Of a stretch of 37,373 bases of DNA, positions 5,147 to 17,115 are shown piece after piece. Each line of letters opens with the position of its first letter. Position 1 is the stretch's first letter. The notes beneath the pieces were generated by a model that made no database searches, was not told the DNA's origin, and saw only the letters and a list, made by a program, of their open reading frames with translations. The stretch covers positions 1 through 37,373 of the forward strand of contig JAAYDA010000059.1 of NCBI GenBank assembly GCA_012729505.1, written 5' to 3'. The DNA is from Syntrophomonadaceae bacterium (lineage in GTDB: Bacteria; Bacillota; Syntrophomonadia; Syntrophomonadales; DTU052). A program made the position numbers and the translations under genes.

Positions 5147-6592
5147 TTACTGATCCTCATCGTCGATTATACCGCAGATCTTCCGGGCAAATCCCTTGCG
5201 CTGCTCCAGTTTAGCATCCCTTAGCAACATCACCCGCTGAGCTTGGGGGGAGCCCGCACCATGCATGGACTCTACCATAGCGGTCCCTCCGGTCATATTC
5301 TCAATAAGTCGCGCCATGCGAATGCGGTGTTCGGTCGGAAACGTTGCCACCCCTTTAAAATATTTATCGACCACCGGCCCAATGACAGGGTGGGCCAGAT
5401 CCTTCTCCGAAGGCAAGGTGCCGATAAACCCTCCGGCGAGATCATGGGCCAGCCGCCCTATTTCATAAATGAAGCGAGTAATATTTTGTTTGGTTACATT
5501 GGCATAGGTAGTATGGGGATAATAGTTTCCGGCCGGAAGTTGGCTGCCTTCATAAGAGCATGCCAGTGAACCGGTATGCAAAGTCTCAGCAAGGTGGATC
5601 ATCTCAACCAGCTTATCCTTTATATGACTGGCCCGGGCGGCACCATTATACTCTGCCATGGAAGCGCAGGCACCGATGAGTACATCAGTAACCCCGCATT
5701 TGCAGCCTCCATAATTCTGACGATGGTAGGTGGCGAATCTCTCCACCAGCATTCCGGAGAACTGCGTCTCTCCGCACATGAAAACTCTATACCAGGGAAT
5801 AAACACATCATTGAACACCACCAGGGTCTCTCCGCCAACTATGCCAAACACCCGGTTACCCTGGTCCATCTCACACATTTTGCGTTCATCGTTGGTTTGA
5901 CGGCCAAAGATCTGCATGATTCCCGGCGTCTCCAGATTGACGGCAAAGCATACTGCATAATCGGCATCCTCCGGCCGCATGTTGACGGTTGGCATTATCA
6001 GTATTTCATGAGAGTTGGCCGCTCCGGTCTGGTGAGCCTTCGCCCCCCGAACCACGATCCCGTCCTCTCTCCTCTCTACCACATGGACGAATAAATCCGG
6101 ATCTGCCTGTTGGTGAGGAGACAGCATCCGGTCCCCCTTGGGATCAGTCATACCTCCAACCACCATCAAATCGTTCTCCTGAATGTGTTTCAGGTACTCG
6201 CAAAATCTTTCATGATATTTGGTCCCAAGCTTCTCATCCATCTCATAAGTTACGCTGTAAGTAGCATTCAGGGCATCCCATCCCACACAGCGCTGGAAGC
6301 AGGTACCGGTCCGCTGGCCAATGGCTCTTAACAGCTTGACCTTTTTTACTAAGTCCAGGTTGCTCTGATGAATGTGGGTGAAGCGGTTAATGGTCTTGCC
6401 TGTTAAGTGTGAGGTTGCGGTTGCCAGATCCTCAAATTCAGGATCGCAAGCCACTTCATAGGTCATCGCCGCCGAGTTGACATGGGGCCGAAAATGCGGG
6501 TTGTCTACCAAATTCTCAACTTTTTCGCCCATAAAATAGATTTCTCCTGACATCTGCCGCAGACTGTCCATATACTCTTGAGCTGTTTTCAT
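5147..6592 (-). CDS. abfD: 4-hydroxybutyryl-CoA dehydratase / vinylacetyl-CoA isomerase
   Basis: The 481-residue product belongs to the HpaB-like flavoprotein family, and its length fits AbfD (~484 aa). All four [4Fe-4S] ligands of the clostridial enzyme have counterparts at the right spacing: C98 and C102 (TGTCFQRCVGWD), H290 and C297 (YHRQNYGGCK). The nearby active-site residues E255, Y294 and K298 are also present. The enzyme converts 4-hydroxybutyryl-CoA through vinylacetyl-CoA to crotonyl-CoA by a radical mechanism with FAD and the cluster; it is oxygen-sensitive and cytosolic. It is the last gene of the unit, 85 bp after the acyl-CoA dehydrogenase, with GAGGAGG before the ATG. Related 4-hydroxyphenylacetate hydroxylases lack this cluster set, so I regard the call as strong. 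Confidence 0.88.
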   Translation of the reverse strand: MKTAQEYMDSLRQMSGEIYFMGEKVENLVDNPHFRPHVNSAAMTYEVACDPEFEDLATATSHLTGKTINRFTHIHQSNLDLVKKVKLLRAIGQRTGTCFQRCVGWDALNATYSVTYEMDEKLGTKYHERFCEYLKHIQENDLMVVGGMTDPKGDRMLSPHQQADPDLFVHVVERREDGIVVRGAKAHQTGAANSHEILIMPTVNMRPEDADYAVCFAVNLETPGIMQIFGRQTNDERKMCEMDQGNRVFGIVGGETLVVFNDVFIPWYRVFMCGETQFSGMLVERFATYHRQNYGGCKCGVTDVLIGACASMAEYNGAARASHIKDKLVEMIHLAETLHTGSLACSYEGSQLPAGNYYPHTTYANVTKQNITRFIYEIGRLAHDLAGGFIGTLPSEKDLAHPVIGPVVDKYFKGVATFPTEHRIRMARLIENMTGGTAMVESMHGAGSPQAQRVMLLRDAKLEQRKGFARKICGIIDDEDQ

Positions 6593-6677: not shown

Positions 6678-8513
6678 TTAATCAAAGAAAAATGATTCCT
6701 GCATGTCCAGAAAGGCATGGTCGCTCTTTCTTATCGTTTCTAATTTGCCGGTGACCGGAGGAAGCAGGGTCCCCAGATAGTATTTGGCAGTTATAATTTT
6801 GCCGGTGAAAAAAGCCTCATTGAAATAATCCGGAGCTTCACCATTAGGCTTATGTTCGGTTTTACTTTCCTCCAGTCGTTCCCGGGCCACTCTGGCCTCC
6901 CAAAGAAAGAGCCAGCCCAAAAGTATATCTCCCCATATTTCCAGGTAAAGAGATGCCCATGATTCAACTAACTCCACTACTCCGGCTGTTTTCATGTTCA
7001 GGACCTTTTCGGTTATCTCCTCCAGCATGCCAAGGTAGCTTTTCAAGTCCGATGCATAGGGAATCAACTCGTTCCATTCAAGCGCTTCCACAATGCTTTC
7101 TTTAATCTGGCTCAGCACTGTCCGATAGGCCCGGCCATTTTTCATGGAGATCTTGCGGTTAACCAAGTCCAGACTCTGTATGCCATTAGTGCCTTCATAT
7201 ATAGAGGTAATTTTGCAGTCACGGGCAAACTGTTCCACATGATACTCAGAGCAGTATCCATAGCCACCCAGGACTTGAACAGCCTTGATACAGACCTCAA
7301 ATCCCTTGTCACTGCCGTAGGCCTTGCAAACCGGTGTCAGCACTTCAATGATATCGTTCCATTTTTGCTTTTCATTTTCATCAGCGGCGGTGTGGATACG
7401 ATCCATACAAAAAACCGCATAAAGCACCAGGGCCCTGATCCCCTCGGTGTAGCATTTCATCCACAGCAGATTGGCTCTCACATCGGCATGTACCACTATA
7501 GGATCCTGAGCAACTTCCTTCTTGCCCGCTGCCACTCCCTGCTTTCTCTCCCGTGCAAAATCCAAGGCATGGAGATAAGCGGTACTCCCCTGGGCTATTC
7601 CCTGCATACCCACCAGAAGCCGCTGCTCATTCATCATATTAAACATTGTTACTATTCCTTTGCGTTCCCCACCCAGCAGTTCTCCCCGGCAATTTTCGTT
7701 GTCGCCAAAGGCCAGCACGCTGGTGGATGAACCTCGCATACCCATCTTATGCTCAATACCCGGGCAGACCACATCATTGTTTTCACCTAATGTCCCATCA
7801 TCATTTACCCGGATTTTAGGGACTATGAAGCAGGACAGCCCTTTGGTTCCTTCCGGATCCCCTTCAATTCTGGCCAGCACAACATGAATAATGTTCTCGT
7901 TAAGATCGGTTTCGCCACCGGTGATAAATATCTTGCTCCCGATTATGCTATAGGTTCCATCCTGATTTTTGACGGCTTTACTCCTTACCGCACCTACATC
8001 ACTCCCGGCCTGAGCTTCAGTGAGGCACATGGTACCGCCGAATCGGCCTTCATACAATGGCAGCATATATTTTCGCTTTTGGTCCTCGCTCCCAAAAACC
8101 TCAATAACCTTAGCCGCGCTATGGGTCAGACCATAGTAGCCGGCCAGATTGTGATTGGCTGCAAAGAATAGTATCTTACAAACATAATCAACCACATGGG
8201 GTACATTCTGCCCTCCCACCTCATATTTCTCCTGAGCGCAGAACCATCCGCCTTCTACCAGCTTACGGTATGGCTCATGATAGACAGATGGAACCCGGAC
8301 CGTGCCATTTTCCCATTTGCAGCCGATCACATCACCTGGTTCATTAGCAGGTGCAAAATCATTCACTGCCAGCTTTTCCGCCGTATTGATTGTCATTTCA
8401 AAGGTTTCCCGGGAATGATCACTAAAACGTTCTGATTTGCAGAGCTCTTCAACATTCAAAAGATCATACAGTACAAATCGAACATCCTTTAAATCACACA
8501 GCTTGTTGCCCAT
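6678..8513 (-). CDS. Acyl-CoA dehydrogenase, long (~600 aa) type
   Basis: The 611-residue product has the acyl-CoA dehydrogenase N-terminal, middle (CLTEAQAGSDVGA, the FAD/substrate strand) and C-terminal domains. The catalytic glutamate lies in SIYEGTNGIQSLDLV. Beyond this it carries ~150 further residues (WNELIPYASDL to the end), as in the DmdC-like/long acyl-CoA dehydrogenases. These flavoproteins oxidise acyl-CoA to 2-enoyl-CoA and pass electrons to ETF. In this setting butyryl-CoA/crotonyl-CoA or a related C4-C5 thioester is a reasonable substrate, but it is not proven by sequence. GAGGAGTG precedes the ATG at 8513. Besides read-through from the ligase gene, it has its own sigma-54 promoter in the 67-bp gap upstream. 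Confidence 0.88.
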   Translation of the reverse strand: MGNKLCDLKDVRFVLYDLLNVEELCKSERFSDHSRETFEMTINTAEKLAVNDFAPANEPGDVIGCKWENGTVRVPSVYHEPYRKLVEGGWFCAQEKYEVGGQNVPHVVDYVCKILFFAANHNLAGYYGLTHSAAKVIEVFGSEDQKRKYMLPLYEGRFGGTMCLTEAQAGSDVGAVRSKAVKNQDGTYSIIGSKIFITGGETDLNENIIHVVLARIEGDPEGTKGLSCFIVPKIRVNDDGTLGENNDVVCPGIEHKMGMRGSSTSVLAFGDNENCRGELLGGERKGIVTMFNMMNEQRLLVGMQGIAQGSTAYLHALDFARERKQGVAAGKKEVAQDPIVVHADVRANLLWMKCYTEGIRALVLYAVFCMDRIHTAADENEKQKWNDIIEVLTPVCKAYGSDKGFEVCIKAVQVLGGYGYCSEYHVEQFARDCKITSIYEGTNGIQSLDLVNRKISMKNGRAYRTVLSQIKESIVEALEWNELIPYASDLKSYLGMLEEITEKVLNMKTAGVVELVESWASLYLEIWGDILLGWLFLWEARVARERLEESKTEHKPNGEAPDYFNEAFFTGKIITAKYYLGTLLPPVTGKLETIRKSDHAFLDMQESFFFD

Positions 8514-8562
8514 ATCTTCACTCCTCTATTGTGATTATTAAATGAACTCTGCATATGCTTAT

Positions 8563-8577
8563 GCAATATCTGTGCCT
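8563..8577 (-). promoter_or_regulatory. Sigma-54 (-24/-12) promoter upstream of the acyl-CoA dehydrogenase
   Basis: The minus strand reads AGGCACA-GATA-TTGC: invariant GG and GC at the exact -24/-12 spacing and 13 of 15 positions fitting TGGCACG-N4-TTGC. It starts 4 bp after the stop of the ligase gene and lies 50 bp before the dehydrogenase ATG. Confidence 0.75.
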
Positions 8578-8580
8578 AAA

Positions 8581-10257
8581 TTATGCATTAGCGCGCTTGG
8601 CTTTTTCCTCTTCCACCAGATCCTTGCGCTGCACCTTGCCGGTATTGCCCTTAGGCAGACTATCACGAAATTCTATTTTTCGAGGATATTTATAGGGGGC
8701 CATCTGCTCCTTGGCCCAATCGATCAACTCTTTCTCCGTGATTTTCCCGGCATACTCGGGTTTAATTACTGCGAAAAGCTTGACTTCTTCGCCCTTGGTC
8801 TCATGAGGAACGCCAATCGCACAACATTCCGTGATGGCTGGATGGGTATACATATACTGCTCCACCTCCGCCGGAAAAACGCTGTAGGCGGATACCTTGA
8901 TCATTTCTTTGAGACGTCCGCAAACGAAAATGTAGCCGTTTTCGTCCATTTTAACAATATCACCGGTACGAACCCAGCCATCACCGAGAAACGTTTCCCG
9001 CGAAGCCTCTGGATTTTCCCAATAACCAATACCGCAGCTATCACATTTGACCCAGAGTTCCCCTTCTTCCCCTAATTCCACATCCCGGCTCAGATCCTTT
9101 ACATCAGCAATCCTCAGGTCCAACTGGGGAACGGGAAGCCCTATACTGCCGAATACAATGGCATCCATGGGGTTCATGGTTGTGGTTGCTGTCGTTTCAC
9201 TCATCCCGTAACCTTCAAACAAGGTTATACCCATGGCTTTATAACGCTCGGAGATAGCCACCGGGAGAGGGGCGCCGCCAATGGCAAAAGCCCGTAAGCT
9301 GGAAAGGTCATACTTGCCAAAATTCGGATGATTTGAAATGGCTATAACCACCGGAGTAGCCACACATATCCATGTTACCCGATAGCGTTCCACCGCTTGC
9401 ATCCAAGCCTCGACATCAAACCGGGTGAGAATTACCAAGCTGTTTCCGGTAAAAGCAAAAGTGCTGAGATGGTCATTCATACAGGTTATATGGAACATTG
9501 GCAGAACCGCAAATTGAACGTCATCCACAGTCATGGTTATGTTAACGGTATTTATCCAGGCGCCATTAACCAGGTTTTTGTGGGTAAGCATGGCTCCTTT
9601 GGGACGTCCGGTGGTGCCTGAGGTGTACTGCAGCAGGGCCAGGTCGTTGATATCAACCTCAGCCATTTCGGTTATGGGATCTGCCGAAATGAAATCCTTC
9701 CAGGCAACGGCATCCGGGCACTCAATCCCCTGTGCCCGCAGGTCTGCCGGAAATGCCGGATACGGATCTTCAGGGAGATACTCATCCAAAGAAGTTACAA
9801 TTATGTTTTCTACTGACGGAAGCTGATCCTTGATCTGGTTATATACCGGAACTACAGATTCCTCGATGATCATAACCTTGGCCCGGGCATCATTTACTGC
9901 GTAATGGACCTCCCCCGCCTTATAAGCGGGAGAGATGGCCATCACCACTGCTCCCAGGGAGTGGGCGGCATAATAAGCTATTACAAATTGCGGAGAGTTC
10001 TGCATCCCAAGATAGACCCGGTCGCCTTTTTTGATCCCCAGCTTCTTGAGACCTCCCGCAGCCCTTAACACCATGTCTCTAAGTTCATCCCAGGTAATCT
10101 TGCGGCCATAATAAATTAGCGCCGTTCGGTGGCGCAAGCGCAGGGAATTATTATAAAGGTGCCGGAACAACGGCTCCTTGCCGTGAATATATCCTTCCTT
10201 GGCCCATAAATCGGTATAGCTTTTTTCCCAGATCCTTTCCCATGCCTTAACTTCCAT
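8581..10257 (-). CDS. Acyl-CoA synthetase (AMP-forming acid-CoA ligase)
   Basis: The 558-residue ANL-superfamily enzyme shows the P-loop-like YTSGTTGRPKGAMLTH, the GYGMSETTATTT motif, GDIVKMDENGYIFVCGR with the hinge Asp/Arg, and the catalytic lysine in LPKGNTGKVQRKDL. It activates a carboxylic acid with ATP to an acyl-adenylate and then to acyl-CoA in the cytosol. The fold does not reveal the acid. As first gene of the unit ending with 4-hydroxybutyryl-CoA dehydratase, 4-hydroxybutyrate is the natural guess, while a short or medium fatty or aromatic acid is possible. AAGGGAGG precedes the ATG, and a perfect sigma-54 promoter lies ~105 bp upstream. Confidence 0.87.
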   Translation of the reverse strand: MEVKAWERIWEKSYTDLWAKEGYIHGKEPLFRHLYNNSLRLRHRTALIYYGRKITWDELRDMVLRAAGGLKKLGIKKGDRVYLGMQNSPQFVIAYYAAHSLGAVVMAISPAYKAGEVHYAVNDARAKVMIIEESVVPVYNQIKDQLPSVENIIVTSLDEYLPEDPYPAFPADLRAQGIECPDAVAWKDFISADPITEMAEVDINDLALLQYTSGTTGRPKGAMLTHKNLVNGAWINTVNITMTVDDVQFAVLPMFHITCMNDHLSTFAFTGNSLVILTRFDVEAWMQAVERYRVTWICVATPVVIAISNHPNFGKYDLSSLRAFAIGGAPLPVAISERYKAMGITLFEGYGMSETTATTTMNPMDAIVFGSIGLPVPQLDLRIADVKDLSRDVELGEEGELWVKCDSCGIGYWENPEASRETFLGDGWVRTGDIVKMDENGYIFVCGRLKEMIKVSAYSVFPAEVEQYMYTHPAITECCAIGVPHETKGEEVKLFAVIKPEYAGKITEKELIDWAKEQMAPYKYPRKIEFRDSLPKGNTGKVQRKDLVEEEKAKRANA

Positions 10258-10362
10258 TAATATGCCTCCCTTTCAAATAACATTGATTGGTGACGCAATA
10301 TAATCCATGGTGCATAAATTGATGTCGATTCCTATAACCGCTGTCACTTGCCGATTTATATT

Positions 10363-10377
10363 GCAAAAAACGTGCCA
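10363..10377 (-). promoter_or_regulatory. Sigma-54 promoter of the ligase-dehydrogenase-dehydratase operon
   Basis: The minus strand reads TGGCACG-TTTT-TTGC, identical to the sigma-54 consensus at every defined position. Transcription should begin near 10351, giving a leader of ~95 nt. The gene immediately upstream encodes a sigma-54 activator. I found no convincing enhancer dyad in 10380-10526; the site may lie there or inside the activator gene. Confidence 0.92.
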
Positions 10378-10526: not shown

Positions 10527-12476
10527 CTAAAGATCATACTTGTCTATTTTGCTGTACAGCGTTGTTCGGGCAATTCCCAATTCCCGGGCAACCCGGGTGA
10601 TATTTCGATTATGGATTTCTAAAAGGTTTTGAATTAGTTCTTTTTCATATTCCTTAACCGGCAGGTCAAACGAGGGGCTTTCATTACTGTGTATAAACTC
10701 CTGGGGCAGATGTTCCATGGTTAAGATCACATCATTACACACATTGACAACTCTCTCCAACATATTTTGCAGCTCCCGGACATTACCCGGCCAATCATAG
10801 CTGTTAAATGCCTCCCATACCTTTTTATCCACCTTTACGATTGCTTCTTTTTTTAGGTTTACACAAAGGTTTTCAATCAGATGAGCTGCCAGCAGTGGAA
10901 TATCATCTTTTCGTTCACGCAGAGGCGGAATCTTGATTAAAAAGACATTAAGCCGATAAAAAAGGTCTTGTCTGAATCTGCCCTGGCTGATTTCCGCATT
11001 CAAATCTTTATTGGTCGCCGCAATAATTCGGAAATCAACCGGGATCTCCTTGTTGCCTCCGACGCGGGTAATAGTCTTGCTTTCCAGGACCCGCAACAGA
11101 GTAGTCTGCAGGTCCAGAGGCATTTCACCGATTTCATCCAGAAAAACAGTACCACCCTGAGCCAATTCAAATTTGCCGATTTTACCTCCCCGTTTGGCTC
11201 CTGTAAAGGCCCCGTCATCGTATCCGAACAGTTCGCTGGCCATGAGCTCCCGGGGAATCGCCCCGCAATTTATCGCCACAAAGGGGGCTCGTTTGCGAAT
11301 CCCCGCATTGTGAATAGATTGGGCAAACACCTCTTTACCGGTACCGCTTTCCCCCAGAAGTAAAACCGTTGAGCTGCTGCCGGCTGCCTGGCGCGCCAAA
11401 TCAATCGTCTTTAAGAATTTAGGATCTTTGCCGATCAGGTTAGCAAATGTCAGACGACCTTCGGAACCGCTCATACGCTGTGCCAGTCGCTGGGCACGTT
11501 TTATCTCGTGAATAAGCAGTACCATACCCTCGCTGATTTCGTCTCCATGTATGGGACGGGTAGTTAGAAGATATGTGTTGAGGCCATTGGAGGTATAAAT
11601 ACCTATCTCATAATCTGTGACAATATGGTTGTTCTGGACAATATCATACACATCTTTATTCTCCGGGCTTAGCAATTCGAAGAACTTTTGTCCTGTTTCA
11701 TTGGGATCAACCCCCAAATAACGAGCCATAATACTGTTTATATGGGTTACGTTTGCCTGGGAATCAACGGCCAGAATCCCTTCGGAGATGGATTCCATCA
11801 CCGCATTCTTGTAGTTGCTGGCATGTTCCAGAGAATGTAAGGCCTTGCGCAGCTCCAACTGGGTCTCAATCGCCCGGACTGCTGTTACGACCATTCCCAG
11901 GGTATGAGGATGCACCTTATCTAAAGGCCCTGCTATGGTAAGAGTCCCGTGGATCTTCCCTTCCGGATCGTGAATCGGAGCAGTGGAGCAACACCAAGGA
12001 TGAAACATCCTGCAATAGTGTTCCCGCCCTTGAATCTGAATGGGTTGATCCAGGAAGAGCGCGGTTCCAATGGAATTAGTCCCCACCGTTTTCTCATCCC
12101 ATTGGGAGCCAGGGATAAAATTCCCCAATCTGCCTTTTTCCTTGGCTTCGTCAGAGCCGATTACCTCCAGCAAACAACCCTCACGGTCAGAAAGGACAAT
12201 AACAAATCCTGCATCAGCCATAAATCTAAAAATATTCTCCATAATAGGAAGGCTGATCATAATAAGTTCTTCCGTGGTATTTTTGTGCCTTGTCAGCATC
12301 TCTCCCTGAAAGATGATCGGTGCCTGAGTTGGCTCATAGCTAACCTGGTTCTCTTTGCTCCTTTTCCAGGAATCCAAAATGTCCTTGGATAAATCCGAGA
12401 ACTCCAAGGTTTCACCGGCCATGAATTGTTTCCATATTTCTTTTATCTGATCCTGATTAAGATAAATGTCCGCCAT
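10527..12476 (-). CDS. Sigma-54-dependent transcriptional activator (AcoR-like, GAF-PAS-AAA+-Fis)
   Basis: The 649-residue product reads in order: an N-terminal region with a GAF domain (about 60-200), a PAS domain (about 210-320, ESISEGILAVDSQANVTHIN), an AAA+ sigma-54 interaction domain with Walker A GESGTGKE, the sigma-54-contacting GAFTGA, Walker B VFLDEIGE, and a C-terminal Fis-type HTH (NITRVARELGIARTTLYSKI). The layout is that of AcoR-type activators, which sense metabolites through the GAF/PAS part rather than by phosphorylation. It lies just upstream of, and in the same direction as, two sigma-54 promoters, so it is almost surely their activator. Its own start at 12476 has a GAGGCGG site. 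Confidence 0.93.
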   Translation of the reverse strand: MADIYLNQDQIKEIWKQFMAGETLEFSDLSKDILDSWKRSKENQVSYEPTQAPIIFQGEMLTRHKNTTEELIMISLPIMENIFRFMADAGFVIVLSDREGCLLEVIGSDEAKEKGRLGNFIPGSQWDEKTVGTNSIGTALFLDQPIQIQGREHYCRMFHPWCCSTAPIHDPEGKIHGTLTIAGPLDKVHPHTLGMVVTAVRAIETQLELRKALHSLEHASNYKNAVMESISEGILAVDSQANVTHINSIMARYLGVDPNETGQKFFELLSPENKDVYDIVQNNHIVTDYEIGIYTSNGLNTYLLTTRPIHGDEISEGMVLLIHEIKRAQRLAQRMSGSEGRLTFANLIGKDPKFLKTIDLARQAAGSSSTVLLLGESGTGKEVFAQSIHNAGIRKRAPFVAINCGAIPRELMASELFGYDDGAFTGAKRGGKIGKFELAQGGTVFLDEIGEMPLDLQTTLLRVLESKTITRVGGNKEIPVDFRIIAATNKDLNAEISQGRFRQDLFYRLNVFLIKIPPLRERKDDIPLLAAHLIENLCVNLKKEAIVKVDKKVWEAFNSYDWPGNVRELQNMLERVVNVCNDVILTMEHLPQEFIHSNESPSFDLPVKEYEKELIQNLLEIHNRNITRVARELGIARTTLYSKIDKYDL

Positions 12477-12656
12477 TCATACCGCCTCGAATCGGATGGA
12501 TTGCCTCTGCTTCAATTATATCTGAATTCCAATTTAAACACATCAGCGAATATGTGTTCAGTGTAGCTTTTCCGTACAGTGTTGTATTATACTACATTTT
12601 GTTCTTCTCTCTCTGCTGGTCACAAACTTCTTTATGACTTCCTAGCATTCTGCACT

Positions 12657-12806
12657 TCAACGTGACCTGGACCTCTTTGCCTGGGAACGGGCAACCTTAG
12701 TTAAAAAGTCCAGGGATGGATTGTACGTTCCGCTTTCCAGGCGACTGATATTGGATTTCCAGATCCCGATCCGAAGCGCCAATCCTACTGCTACAGCAGT
12801 CCCGGT
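12657..12806 (-). pseudogene. Remnant of an XRE-type HTH protein
   Basis: The minus strand translates to IGIWKSNISRLESGTYNPSL and then DFLTKVARSQAKR before a stop at 12657. This is the recognition-helix half of a Cro/CI HTH domain, as in HigA-like antitoxins. A stop codon directly precedes the open stretch at 12807, and there is no start codon or N-terminal helix. It is a truncated relic of about 50 codons. Confidence 0.55.
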
Positions 12807-14968: not shown

Positions 14969-15739
14969 GTGAATTCAGAAAACCGTCTTAGAATCTCCAG
15001 AGAGCGCTTTGGCTTAAAAGCCGGTATTGATCTGTCTGTGGTGGCCCTGGCAGGTAATCCCAACGTAGGGAAAAGCACAGTTTTTAACAAATTGACCGGA
15101 TTGCATCAGCATACCGGCAACTGGCCGGGAAAGACTATTCAAAGTGCGCAGGGTTCCTTTAGTTATAAAGGGCGGCCCTTTTTGCTGGTGGATTTGCCTG
15201 GAACCTATTCCCTGCTGGCCCATACTCCGGAAGAAGAGATTGCCAGAGATTTTATTTGTTTTGGACGGCCTGACGTGACCCTGGTAGTGCTTGACGCAAC
15301 CTGTCTGGAAAGAAACTTGAATTTGGCCCTTCAGGTAATAGAAATTACTCCCAATGCCGTGATTTGCGTAAACTTAATGGATGAAGCCCGAAAGAAGAAA
15401 ATACATATAGATATTCCCCTTTTGGAACAAGAACTGGGTGTGCCTGTAGTAGCGGCTTCGGCTCGAAATGGGGAAGGATTAAGCGATATTCGCGAAGCTT
15501 TATATCAGATAATCACCAAAGAGCGCATTACTATGCCCCGGCAGATTCAATATTCCAGCGACATTGAAAATGCTGTACAGCAGCTGCTCCCAGAGCTTAA
15601 CCACCTAGACATATTTACCCTCAGCCCCAGATGGGTGGCCCTGAGATTACTGGATTCCGATAAAAGCCTTCTGGACAGCATTACTTCTTACCTGAATCTG
15701 GAGACTGAATGCTGGCGGGAGGCGGGTGCGTCAGTATGA
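14969..15739 (+). CDS. feoB: FeoB cytosolic part: G domain and helical domain, as a separate gene
   Basis: The 256-residue product covers only the soluble NFeoB portion: G1 GNPNVGKST (29-37), G3 DLPGTY (75-80), G4 NLMD (135-138), G5 around SARNGEG, and then the GDI-like helical domain. It lacks the membrane half found in ordinary ~650-800 aa FeoB. The next gene begins with an ATGA overlap of its stop codon and supplies the missing permease, so the two products should assemble. The start is a GTG at 14969 with AAGGAGG upstream. Because the break is a tidy coupled junction, I read this as a true split gene rather than a sequencing frameshift, though the latter is not excluded. Confidence 0.88.
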   Translation: MNSENRLRISRERFGLKAGIDLSVVALAGNPNVGKSTVFNKLTGLHQHTGNWPGKTIQSAQGSFSYKGRPFLLVDLPGTYSLLAHTPEEEIARDFICFGRPDVTLVVLDATCLERNLNLALQVIEITPNAVICVNLMDEARKKKIHIDIPLLEQELGVPVVAASARNGEGLSDIREALYQIITKERITMPRQIQYSSDIENAVQQLLPELNHLDIFTLSPRWVALRLLDSDKSLLDSITSYLNLETECWREAGASV

Positions 15740-17115
15740 GGGAATTGATGCCCGATCTGAGCAATGCCTGGAAGAAGGCAGGAAATATCGGCAACTTCTC
15801 TGATCAGATTGTGTCAGACATTTATAAAAATACTGAAGAGATTATCCAAAAGGTTGAGCGGCAGGATTACAAATCCCGAAATCTGGACGGGAAAATTGAC
15901 GACATCCTTACCTCCCGCCTGTTTGGTTATCCCATAATGATTGCTCTGTTAGGATTTGTTTTTTGGCTTACCATTCAGGGTGCCAACGTTCCTTCAGAAT
16001 TGCTGGCCACAGTGCTGCTAGGCTTCCAGGAACAACTGACTCACTGGTTTGTACTGGCAAATGCACCTGACTGGCTTCATGGAATTCTGGTGTTGGGAGC
16101 TTACCGATCATTAGCCTGGGTAGTATCTGTCATGCTGCCTCCTATGGCTATCTTCTTCCCTCTTTTCACCCTGCTTGAAGATCTAGGCTATCTCCCCAGA
16201 ATAGCCTTTAACCTGGACAATACCTTTAGAAAATGCGGAGCTTGTGGGAAACAAATGCTTACCATGTGTATGGGGTTTGGCTGTAATGCGGCCGGAGTGA
16301 TTGCGTGCAGAATCATCGATTCCAAACGAGAACGTTTGATCGCCATTTTAACCAACACTTTCGTCCCGTGTAACGGCAGATTTCCTACTTTGATTGCGCT
16401 GTCTATCATTTTCGCCGCCGGAGCCGCAGCATCTGCCTACAAAACCATAATAGCCAGTGCGGTCGTAACCGCTCTGGTAATGCTGGGAATCATAATAACC
16501 TTTGCCGCTTCATGGATATTATCAAAAACCATCCTCAGAGGAGAATCATCTGCTTTCTTCCTGGAACTCCCTCCTTACCGCAAACCCCAAATCGGAGCGG
16601 TAATTTACAGATCAATAATTGATCGTACTGTTTTCGTCTTAAAACGGGCAATGATAATGGCTGCACCGGCAGGGGCCGTTACCTGGGTACTGGCTAATGT
16701 ATTCGTCGGAGATATAAGTGTTCTCACCCATCTGGCCCAGTTTCTTGAGCCTACGGCCAGAATTATCGGGCTGGACGGCTTCATTCTGATGGCATTCATT
16801 CTGGGATTGCCTGCCAATGAAATCGTTATCCCCATTCTGCTAATGAGCTACTTATCCATGGGATATATGGTGGATTTCACCGGTCTGGAGGAATTGGGAA
16901 GAATTCTGGTACAGAACGGGTGGACTTGGGTGACCGCTTTAAATGTTATGTTGTTTAGTTTACTGCACTGGCCCTGCTCCACCACCCTGTTAACAGCTTA
17001 CAAAGAATCAGGCAGCCTCAAGTGGACGTTTGCGGCATTCCTGATTCCTACAGTTACTGCGTTCTCAGTCTGCTTCCTCACTGCCCAGCTTGCACGGCTA
17101 TTGGGCTGGACTTAA
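15736..17115 (+). CDS. feoB: FeoB membrane permease part, as a separate gene
   Basis: The 459-residue product starts with a soluble linker (about 1-60) that normally joins NFeoB to the membrane, then some 8-10 transmembrane helices with two FeoB gate repeats. It has the FeoB Cys motifs KCGACGKQMLTMCMGFGCNA and FVPCNGRFPTLIALS, and the late motif LLHWPCSTTLLTAYKE. It should form the Fe2+ path in the inner membrane and depend on the G-domain protein encoded just before it. Its ATG at 15736 overlaps the upstream TGA (ATGA), a translational-coupling arrangement. No terminator follows before the aminotransferase gene. Confidence 0.9.
   Translation: MRELMPDLSNAWKKAGNIGNFSDQIVSDIYKNTEEIIQKVERQDYKSRNLDGKIDDILTSRLFGYPIMIALLGFVFWLTIQGANVPSELLATVLLGFQEQLTHWFVLANAPDWLHGILVLGAYRSLAWVVSVMLPPMAIFFPLFTLLEDLGYLPRIAFNLDNTFRKCGACGKQMLTMCMGFGCNAAGVIACRIIDSKRERLIAILTNTFVPCNGRFPTLIALSIIFAAGAAASAYKTIIASAVVTALVMLGIIITFAASWILSKTILRGESSAFFLELPPYRKPQIGAVIYRSIIDRTVFVLKRAMIMAAPAGAVTWVLANVFVGDISVLTHLAQFLEPTARIIGLDGFILMAFILGLPANEIVIPILLMSYLSMGYMVDFTGLEELGRILVQNGWTWVTALNVMLFSLLHWPCSTTLLTAYKESGSLKWTFAAFLIPTVTAFSVCFLTAQLARLLGWT

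Follow-up and report, generated by a model that had tools for sequence, protein, structure and literature searches.

The 67-bp gap between the ligase and dehydrogenase genes of a minus-strand gene cluster harbors a sequence, AGGCACAGATATTGCA, which we consider, with a probability of about 0.6 judged from sequence comparisons, to be a sigma-54 promoter for the dehydrogenase-dehydratase pair that would be opened by the activator encoded in the same cluster. A working sigma-54 promoter at this position is probable, and the cluster is most simply read as two sigma-54 units located side by side, i.e., the ligase and the dehydrogenase-dehydratase pair, each with its own promoter. Read along the minus strand, the cluster consists of activator, TGGCACGTTTTTTGCA, ligase, AGGCACAGATATTGCA, dehydrogenase and dehydratase-like gene. 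The window referred to below is the whole stretch of 37,373 nucleotides that was analysed, and its relevant features are:

12562–12596, minus strand: sole good operator copy in the window, 86 bp before the activator start codon (38.5 bits)
10527–12476, minus strand: sigma-54 activator (enhancer-binding protein) with GAF, PAS, Sigma54_activat and HTH_8 (Fis) domains
10362–10377, minus strand: first −24/−12 promoter, TGGCACGTTTTTTGCA, upstream of the ligase gene; exact consensus match
8581–10257, minus strand: AMP-forming acyl-CoA ligase, 558 aa
8514–8580, minus strand: ligase-dehydrogenase gap, 67 bp (direct reading and consensus scan)
8562–8577, minus strand: candidate internal −24/−12 (sigma-54) promoter, AGGCACAGATATTGCA (bases read directly, motif scoring)
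6678–8513, minus strand: long acyl-CoA dehydrogenase with an Acyl-CoA_dh_C domain, 611 aa
5147–6592, minus strand: 4-hydroxybutyryl-CoA dehydratase-like protein of the HpaB superfamily (best PDB match 1u8v, E 1.4e-174)

The dehydratase label is that of the best PDB match, 1u8v, and the CxxxC and HxxxxxxC positions, which we take to be iron-sulphur ligands, are conserved in that alignment. A −24/−12 site belonging to the dehydratase gene itself was considered and rejected for the window, as the 85-bp gap before this gene contains none at a score of 21 or more. Elsewhere in the window, the GTPase part and the membrane part of a FeoB-like protein, labelled from the translations alone, are found in two overlapping open reading frames (ORFs) in different frames, 14969–15739 and 15709–17115 (plus strand), i.e., a split gene or a frameshift.

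Sequence, position and rarity of the internal motif

In AGGCACAGATATTGCA the GG is found at 8576–8575 and the GC at 8564–8563, i.e., the GG-N10-GC spacing is exact. Comparison with TGGCACN5TTGCW reveals one mismatch over the 16-mer, an A for T at the first base (−26), while GG, CAC, TTGC and the spacing are all intact. The ligase stop codon TAA occupies 8583–8581, and the element begins at the fourth base past it, with three bases in between. On the other side, the dehydrogenase ATG is located at 8513 and is preceded by an AGGAGT ribosome-binding site at 8525–8520; transcription from AGGCACAGATATTGCA is predicted to start near 8551, which would yield a leader of 38 nt. A consensus scan of the 67-bp gap found neither a terminator nor a sigma-70 promoter. 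An earlier note on this DNA had placed a sigma-54 motif in the gap, four bases past the ligase stop, and this observation is borne out by the exact spacing and the start at the fourth base. The element is credible as a sigma-54 promoter positioned to drive the dehydrogenase-dehydratase pair.

The rarity was evaluated with a strict matrix composed of 23 other −24/−12 sites of the same genome, all with T as the first base and none from the window. Here, AGGCACAGATATTGCA reached 16.7 bits, the second highest score of 74,716 window positions, after the ligase promoter with 24.9 bits and ahead of a third position with 12.9 bits. The absence of T at −26 and the score, about 8 bits below that of the ligase promoter, count against the element. 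In a first-order Markov background, 9 of 4,482,960 positions scored at or above AGGCACAGATATTGCA, which corresponds to a chance expectation of ~1e-4 in the gap (52 placements, one strand). A second matrix, based on 30 genome sites with the ligase promoter included and AGGCACAGATATTGCA left out, gave 18.4 bits, again the second of 74,716 window positions, with 12.1 bits for the third. A window search that allowed up to three mismatches is uninformative because it returned 84 matches where 92.8 were expected; strict scoring is informative.

In the whole genome, up to one mismatch was found at 88 positions, compared to 30 for the backwards pattern. All 88 matches were placed against mechanically called ORFs and classified by whether they are located outside an ORF or at its edge. 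This was the case for 11 of the 15 exact matches, 8 of the 19 that deviate at position 6 (TGGCAT in all 8 cases), and 5 of the 8 with a first-base mismatch (4 of 7 without AGGCACAGATATTGCA), but for only 2 of the 46 with mismatches at positions 2–5 or 12–15. Because of this difference between first-base variants and the latter group, an A at −26 seems to be tolerated in this genome, while changes at most other positions of the motif do not, although the numbers are small. Two of the other variants of this kind receive low scores (4.8 and 8.1 bits) from the matrix of this genome. The first-base variant GGGCACGTTAATTGCA, on contig C50, has a PTE-family gene on one side and, on the other, a divergent ORF with an activator match. 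The genome contains one Sigma54_DBD match (RpoN, E 8.7e-60), 17 activator-domain matches at E 1e-40 or better and about 30 likely −24/−12 sites.

−24/−12 sites of the dehydrogenase and ligase genes in related bacteria

A scan of species genomes identified seven dehydrogenase loci. Orthologues were also sought in the organism's own genome and those of 40 relatives, in 63 genomes from the class and in a sample of 398 from the phylum; besides many paralogues at 35–41% identity, this added only a damaged close copy in genome G002. At E 1e-150 the class and phylum searches returned no further orthologues (matches in 3 of 63 and in 2 of 398 genomes, counting the organism's own); in the phylum sample, three candidates were scored in genomes that had more, and damaged or distant copies would be missed.

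Locus L059 (genome G004) is from the same family and has a dehydrogenase that is 82% identical, while L060 (genome G002) is the locus with the damaged dehydrogenase. In both, the order is −24/−12 site, ligase, (an MFS gene in L059), activator, −24/−12 site and dehydrogenase. In other words, the ligase gene has its own −24/−12 site in two of two relatives, and that of the dehydrogenase, which is TGGCATGAAAGTTGCA in both loci, is found between the activator and dehydrogenase genes. In L022 (Desulfosporosinus fructosivorans) the order is activator, TGGCATAGAAATTGCG and dehydrogenase; the dehydratase orthologue of this species has an operator and a −24/−12 site. In L026 (Syntrophomonas sp.) the dehydrogenase gene comes after a 3-hydroxyacyl-CoA dehydrogenase gene and a thiolase gene, and the series as a whole is preceded by a −24/−12 site. 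No such site is found directly upstream of the dehydrogenase gene, which follows that of the thiolase; the dehydratase gene of this locus has its own site. Also in the Family XIII loci L023–L025 and in the distant L027 (43% identical, omitted from the multi-locus site map) the dehydrogenase is without a directly upstream −24/−12 site. A directly upstream site is thus seen at 3 of the 8 loci; when only those loci are counted in which the activator gene immediately precedes the dehydrogenase gene, the figure is 3 of 3.

The 16-mer in front of the dehydrogenase gene does not differ between L059 and L060, and a terminator-like stretch just before it is also conserved, while the leader after it has diverged. 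A homologous leader common to the window and the relatives was not found; the alignment of the 67-bp leader was equalled by 23, 162 and 84 of 300 shuffles for L059, L060 and L022, respectively. Because the leaders do not align clearly beyond shuffles, AGGCACAGATATTGCA may be inherited from the relatives' promoter or newly formed. The damaged dehydrogenase gene of L060 (8753–9871, minus strand, G002) is an ORF of 372 aa whose match is confined to query residues 1–89 and 304–611, which looks like an in-frame loss of the central part; an assembly error is possible.

The operator and its distance from the promoters

Comparison of the sequences upstream of the −24/−12 sites in L022 and L026 exposed an operator, TGTAG-N6-ACAACASTGT-N10-TACA, which is composed of two abutting TGT-N11-ACA dyads. 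In these two loci, the operator centre is found 70–299 bp upstream of 9 of 9 −24/−12 sites that score 21 or more, where one L026 copy serves two sites; the L026 activator gene has both an operator and a −24/−12 site. A matrix built from the eight copies of L022 and L026 alone was then run on the window. The only good match is the copy at 12562–12596, followed by its own reverse complement (9.4), an overlapping register (6.1) and a score of 2.1; it is a held-out confirmation of the operator derived from the relatives. A TATAAT sequence at 12520 is located between this copy and the activator ATG. The operators of the window and L060 are found just ahead of the activator gene, while in L059 the MFS gene is preceded by one copy and the activator gene by a weaker one.

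A search of nine genomes with up to three mismatches, with the reversed pattern as control, found copies with 0–1 mismatch only in this gene cluster, i.e., in G007, G445 (D. fructosivorans), G004, G002 and the own genome. Matches with three mismatches are noise because the reversed control gave 0–3 per genome, and two copies with two mismatches are located outside the cluster (G007 contig C19 and G003 contig C113). The copy on C113 (L123) is found together with a −24/−12 site before a distant ligase paralogue; G003 has no dehydrogenase match at E 1e-150.

Near the operators of the window, L059 and L060, the scan for −24/−12 sites found none above 18, compared to 21–24 at the sites named above, and non-canonical elements beside these operators were rejected on the basis of best scores of only 16–18. 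Of the 17 candidates listed, four retain GG-N10-GC (scores 16–18) and are rated weak. One of them is found at 12789 in the window, on the upstream side of the operator. The other three belong to L059, with positions 5706, 5924 and 7631; the last two of these are each near a gene start, with an operator copy upstream. Unrecognised local promoters are therefore possible there. Divergent use of the operator toward the ferritin-like gene (12897) was also considered and rejected, as the only plus-strand candidate at a score of 16 or more between 12300 and 13050 is TGGATTGTACGTTCCG at 12717, which is without the GC.

In the window, the distance from the operator centre is 2,202 bp to the ligase site and 4,002 bp to AGGCACAGATATTGCA, both downstream of the operator. 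The corresponding distances to the dehydrogenase site are 2,286 bp (L059) and 2,254 bp (L060), while the operator nearest to the ligase site in these two loci is located about 1,970–1,980 bp downstream. The earlier note suggested that the dehydrogenase-dehydratase pair might be produced in excess over the ligase, or might be separately inducible under the same activator; excess and separate induction are conjectures. Use of the same activator is without local support, i.e., no recognisable operator copy is found within ~350 bp upstream of either promoter. Over this range the best 17-bp dyad scores only 0.4 upstream of the ligase site and 0.4 upstream of AGGCACAGATATTGCA, a value reached by 256 of 37,357 window positions; the scores are 2.2 (ligase) and 4.7 (dehydrogenase) for L059, and 4.1 and 2.0 for L060. 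At the nine L022/L026 sites, whose own copies are in the matrix, the same dyad scores 11.8–19.5. Control by the same activator would have to involve action over a distance or an operator too weak to recognise.

The favored reading of AGGCACAGATATTGCA as a promoter opened by the neighbouring activator can be described as follows. Two sigma-54 units would have come to adjoin downstream of the activator gene, each keeping its −24/−12 element. The RpoN polymerase would wait in a closed state at both promoters until these are opened by the GAF/PAS activator encoded just upstream. Looping from the sole recognisable operator would be the route best supported by the sequence, but this step taken alone is rather improbable and there are others within the same reading, e.g., a local operator too weak to recognise. 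Because no terminator was found in the gap, some of the dehydrogenase mRNA would also come from read-through that starts at the ligase promoter. A more general scheme for this bacterial family, in which a single enhancer preceding the activator gene would act over the length of entire genes on separate sigma-54 promoters, is likewise doubtful at present. In the window the enhancer would have to span 2.2 kb to the ligase promoter and 4.0 kb to the dehydrogenase promoter; in the sister genomes the distance to the dehydrogenase promoter would be about 2.3 kb, and the ligase promoter would be reached from downstream over about 2.0 kb. The location of the L059 and L060 operators downstream, rather than upstream, of the ligase site argues against looping from a single enhancer, and so do the four weak GG-N10-GC sequences near the operators. 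In the more distant relatives L022 and L026 an operator copy is found within 300 bp of each promoter. If true, the remote enhancer would mean that control within one regulon has shifted naturally from local enhancers to a long-range one. The question raised is whether a native sigma-54 enhancer acts over 2–4 kb and intervening genes, where relatives keep local copies. Sigma-54 enhancers have been tested at distances up to 6 kb, where they are less efficient, and natural sites are described up to 3 kb upstream (PMC7408454); activity from 15 kb is cited for glnAp2 (PMC4641369).

The rival explanation that survives best, albeit a rather improbable one, is that AGGCACAGATATTGCA is a decayed or weak promoter, which lost T(−26) and a local operator after the ligase unit had come to lie in front of it, such that read-through from the strong promoter at 10377 now supplies most of the dehydrogenase and dehydratase. 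The weaker match compared to the ligase promoter would fit such a history, as would the absence of a recognisable local operator and the only 67 bp between the genes, in which no terminator was found. However, GG, CAC, TTGC and the spacing have remained intact and first-base variants look tolerated genome-wide. Furthermore, the ligase promoter is likewise without a local operator, and this lack therefore does not single out AGGCACAGATATTGCA.

Less likely still is a genuine sigma-54 promoter that uses another activator, or one that acts without an operator, while the copy at 12562–12596 only autoregulates the activator gene. The 17 activator-domain matches offer candidates, and autoregulation is consistent with an operator 86 bp before the activator ATG with TATAAT in between, as well as with the operator and −24/−12 site of the L026 activator gene. 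On the other hand, no other dyad was found upstream of AGGCACAGATATTGCA, and the ligase site is preceded by no dyads other than CCCGGGTTGCCCGGG and a single TGT-N12-ACA, which both fall within the terminal part of the activator coding sequence; the operator of another activator near both window promoters was rejected because no dyad is common to the two. Confinement of the 0–1 mismatch operator copies to this cluster in the nine genomes also argues against this explanation. A chance match without function is very improbable: the mismatch at a usually conserved base and the lack of excess in the three-mismatch window search would allow it, but it is difficult to reconcile with a chance expectation of ~1e-4 for the coding strand of the gap, with an orientation that is correct within a cluster that includes a sigma-54 activator gene, and with the separate −24/−12 site of the downstream dehydrogenase gene in three relatives.

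Relation to other sigma-54 systems

Putative internal sigma-54 promoters have been published for Myxococcus xanthus (PMC7910581). The resemblance is that a −24/−12 element is found within a series of genes of the same orientation and is expected to drive only some of them; however, those promoters are found within coding sequence, whereas AGGCACAGATATTGCA is located in an intergenic gap. In clostridia, operators of the type TGT-N10-12-ACA are described in fifteen groups, mostly 100–250 bp upstream of the promoter, together with the −24/−12 consensus TTGGCATNNNNNTTGCT (Nie et al. 2019, PMC6615313). The window resembles these regulons in the operator type, the −24/−12 consensus, the location of an activator gene beside fermentation genes and the Fis-type HTH, and the XanR regulon includes abfD (PMC6615313). 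It differs in that its sole good operator is 2.2 and 4.0 kb away from the promoters, and XanR has a distinct reported motif and other genes in its abfD unit (PMC6615313); the operator letters ACAACA occur 0 times in the main text of that paper. For Desulfovibrio vulgaris, 23 operons are described with a −24/−12 promoter and no predicted operator, and distant enhancers are named as a possibility (PMC4641369). The window promoters are similarly without a recognisable nearby operator, but here the analysis produced an operator motif for the neighbouring activator and located the sole good copy in the locus. For relatives of Syntrophomonas, the comparison yields an operator that can be tested and that belongs to an activator of acyl-CoA and 4-hydroxybutyryl-CoA-type metabolism.

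AGGCACAGATATTGCA itself is an ordinary kind of promoter. The view that two −24/−12 promoters in one operon are unusual does not hold, as serial sites are found elsewhere in the genome and in the relatives. L022 and L026 contain 4 and 5 −24/−12 sites, respectively, at a score of 21 or more in about 14 kb. In the own genome, contig C13 (L145, 2524–6326) harbors a paralogous HpaB-family gene (hpaB), a thiolase and a ligase gene with two exact −24/−12 sites in series. On contig C30 (L144, 2834 and 5194), two identical −24/−12 16-mers are found in series, each before an AMP-binding ligase gene, and a TGTCC-N7-GGACA dyad is located 123–125 bp upstream of each site, in contrast to AGGCACAGATATTGCA with no recognisable operator nearby, which counts against the latter. 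The C30 pair represents a second activator regulon that is ready for testing.
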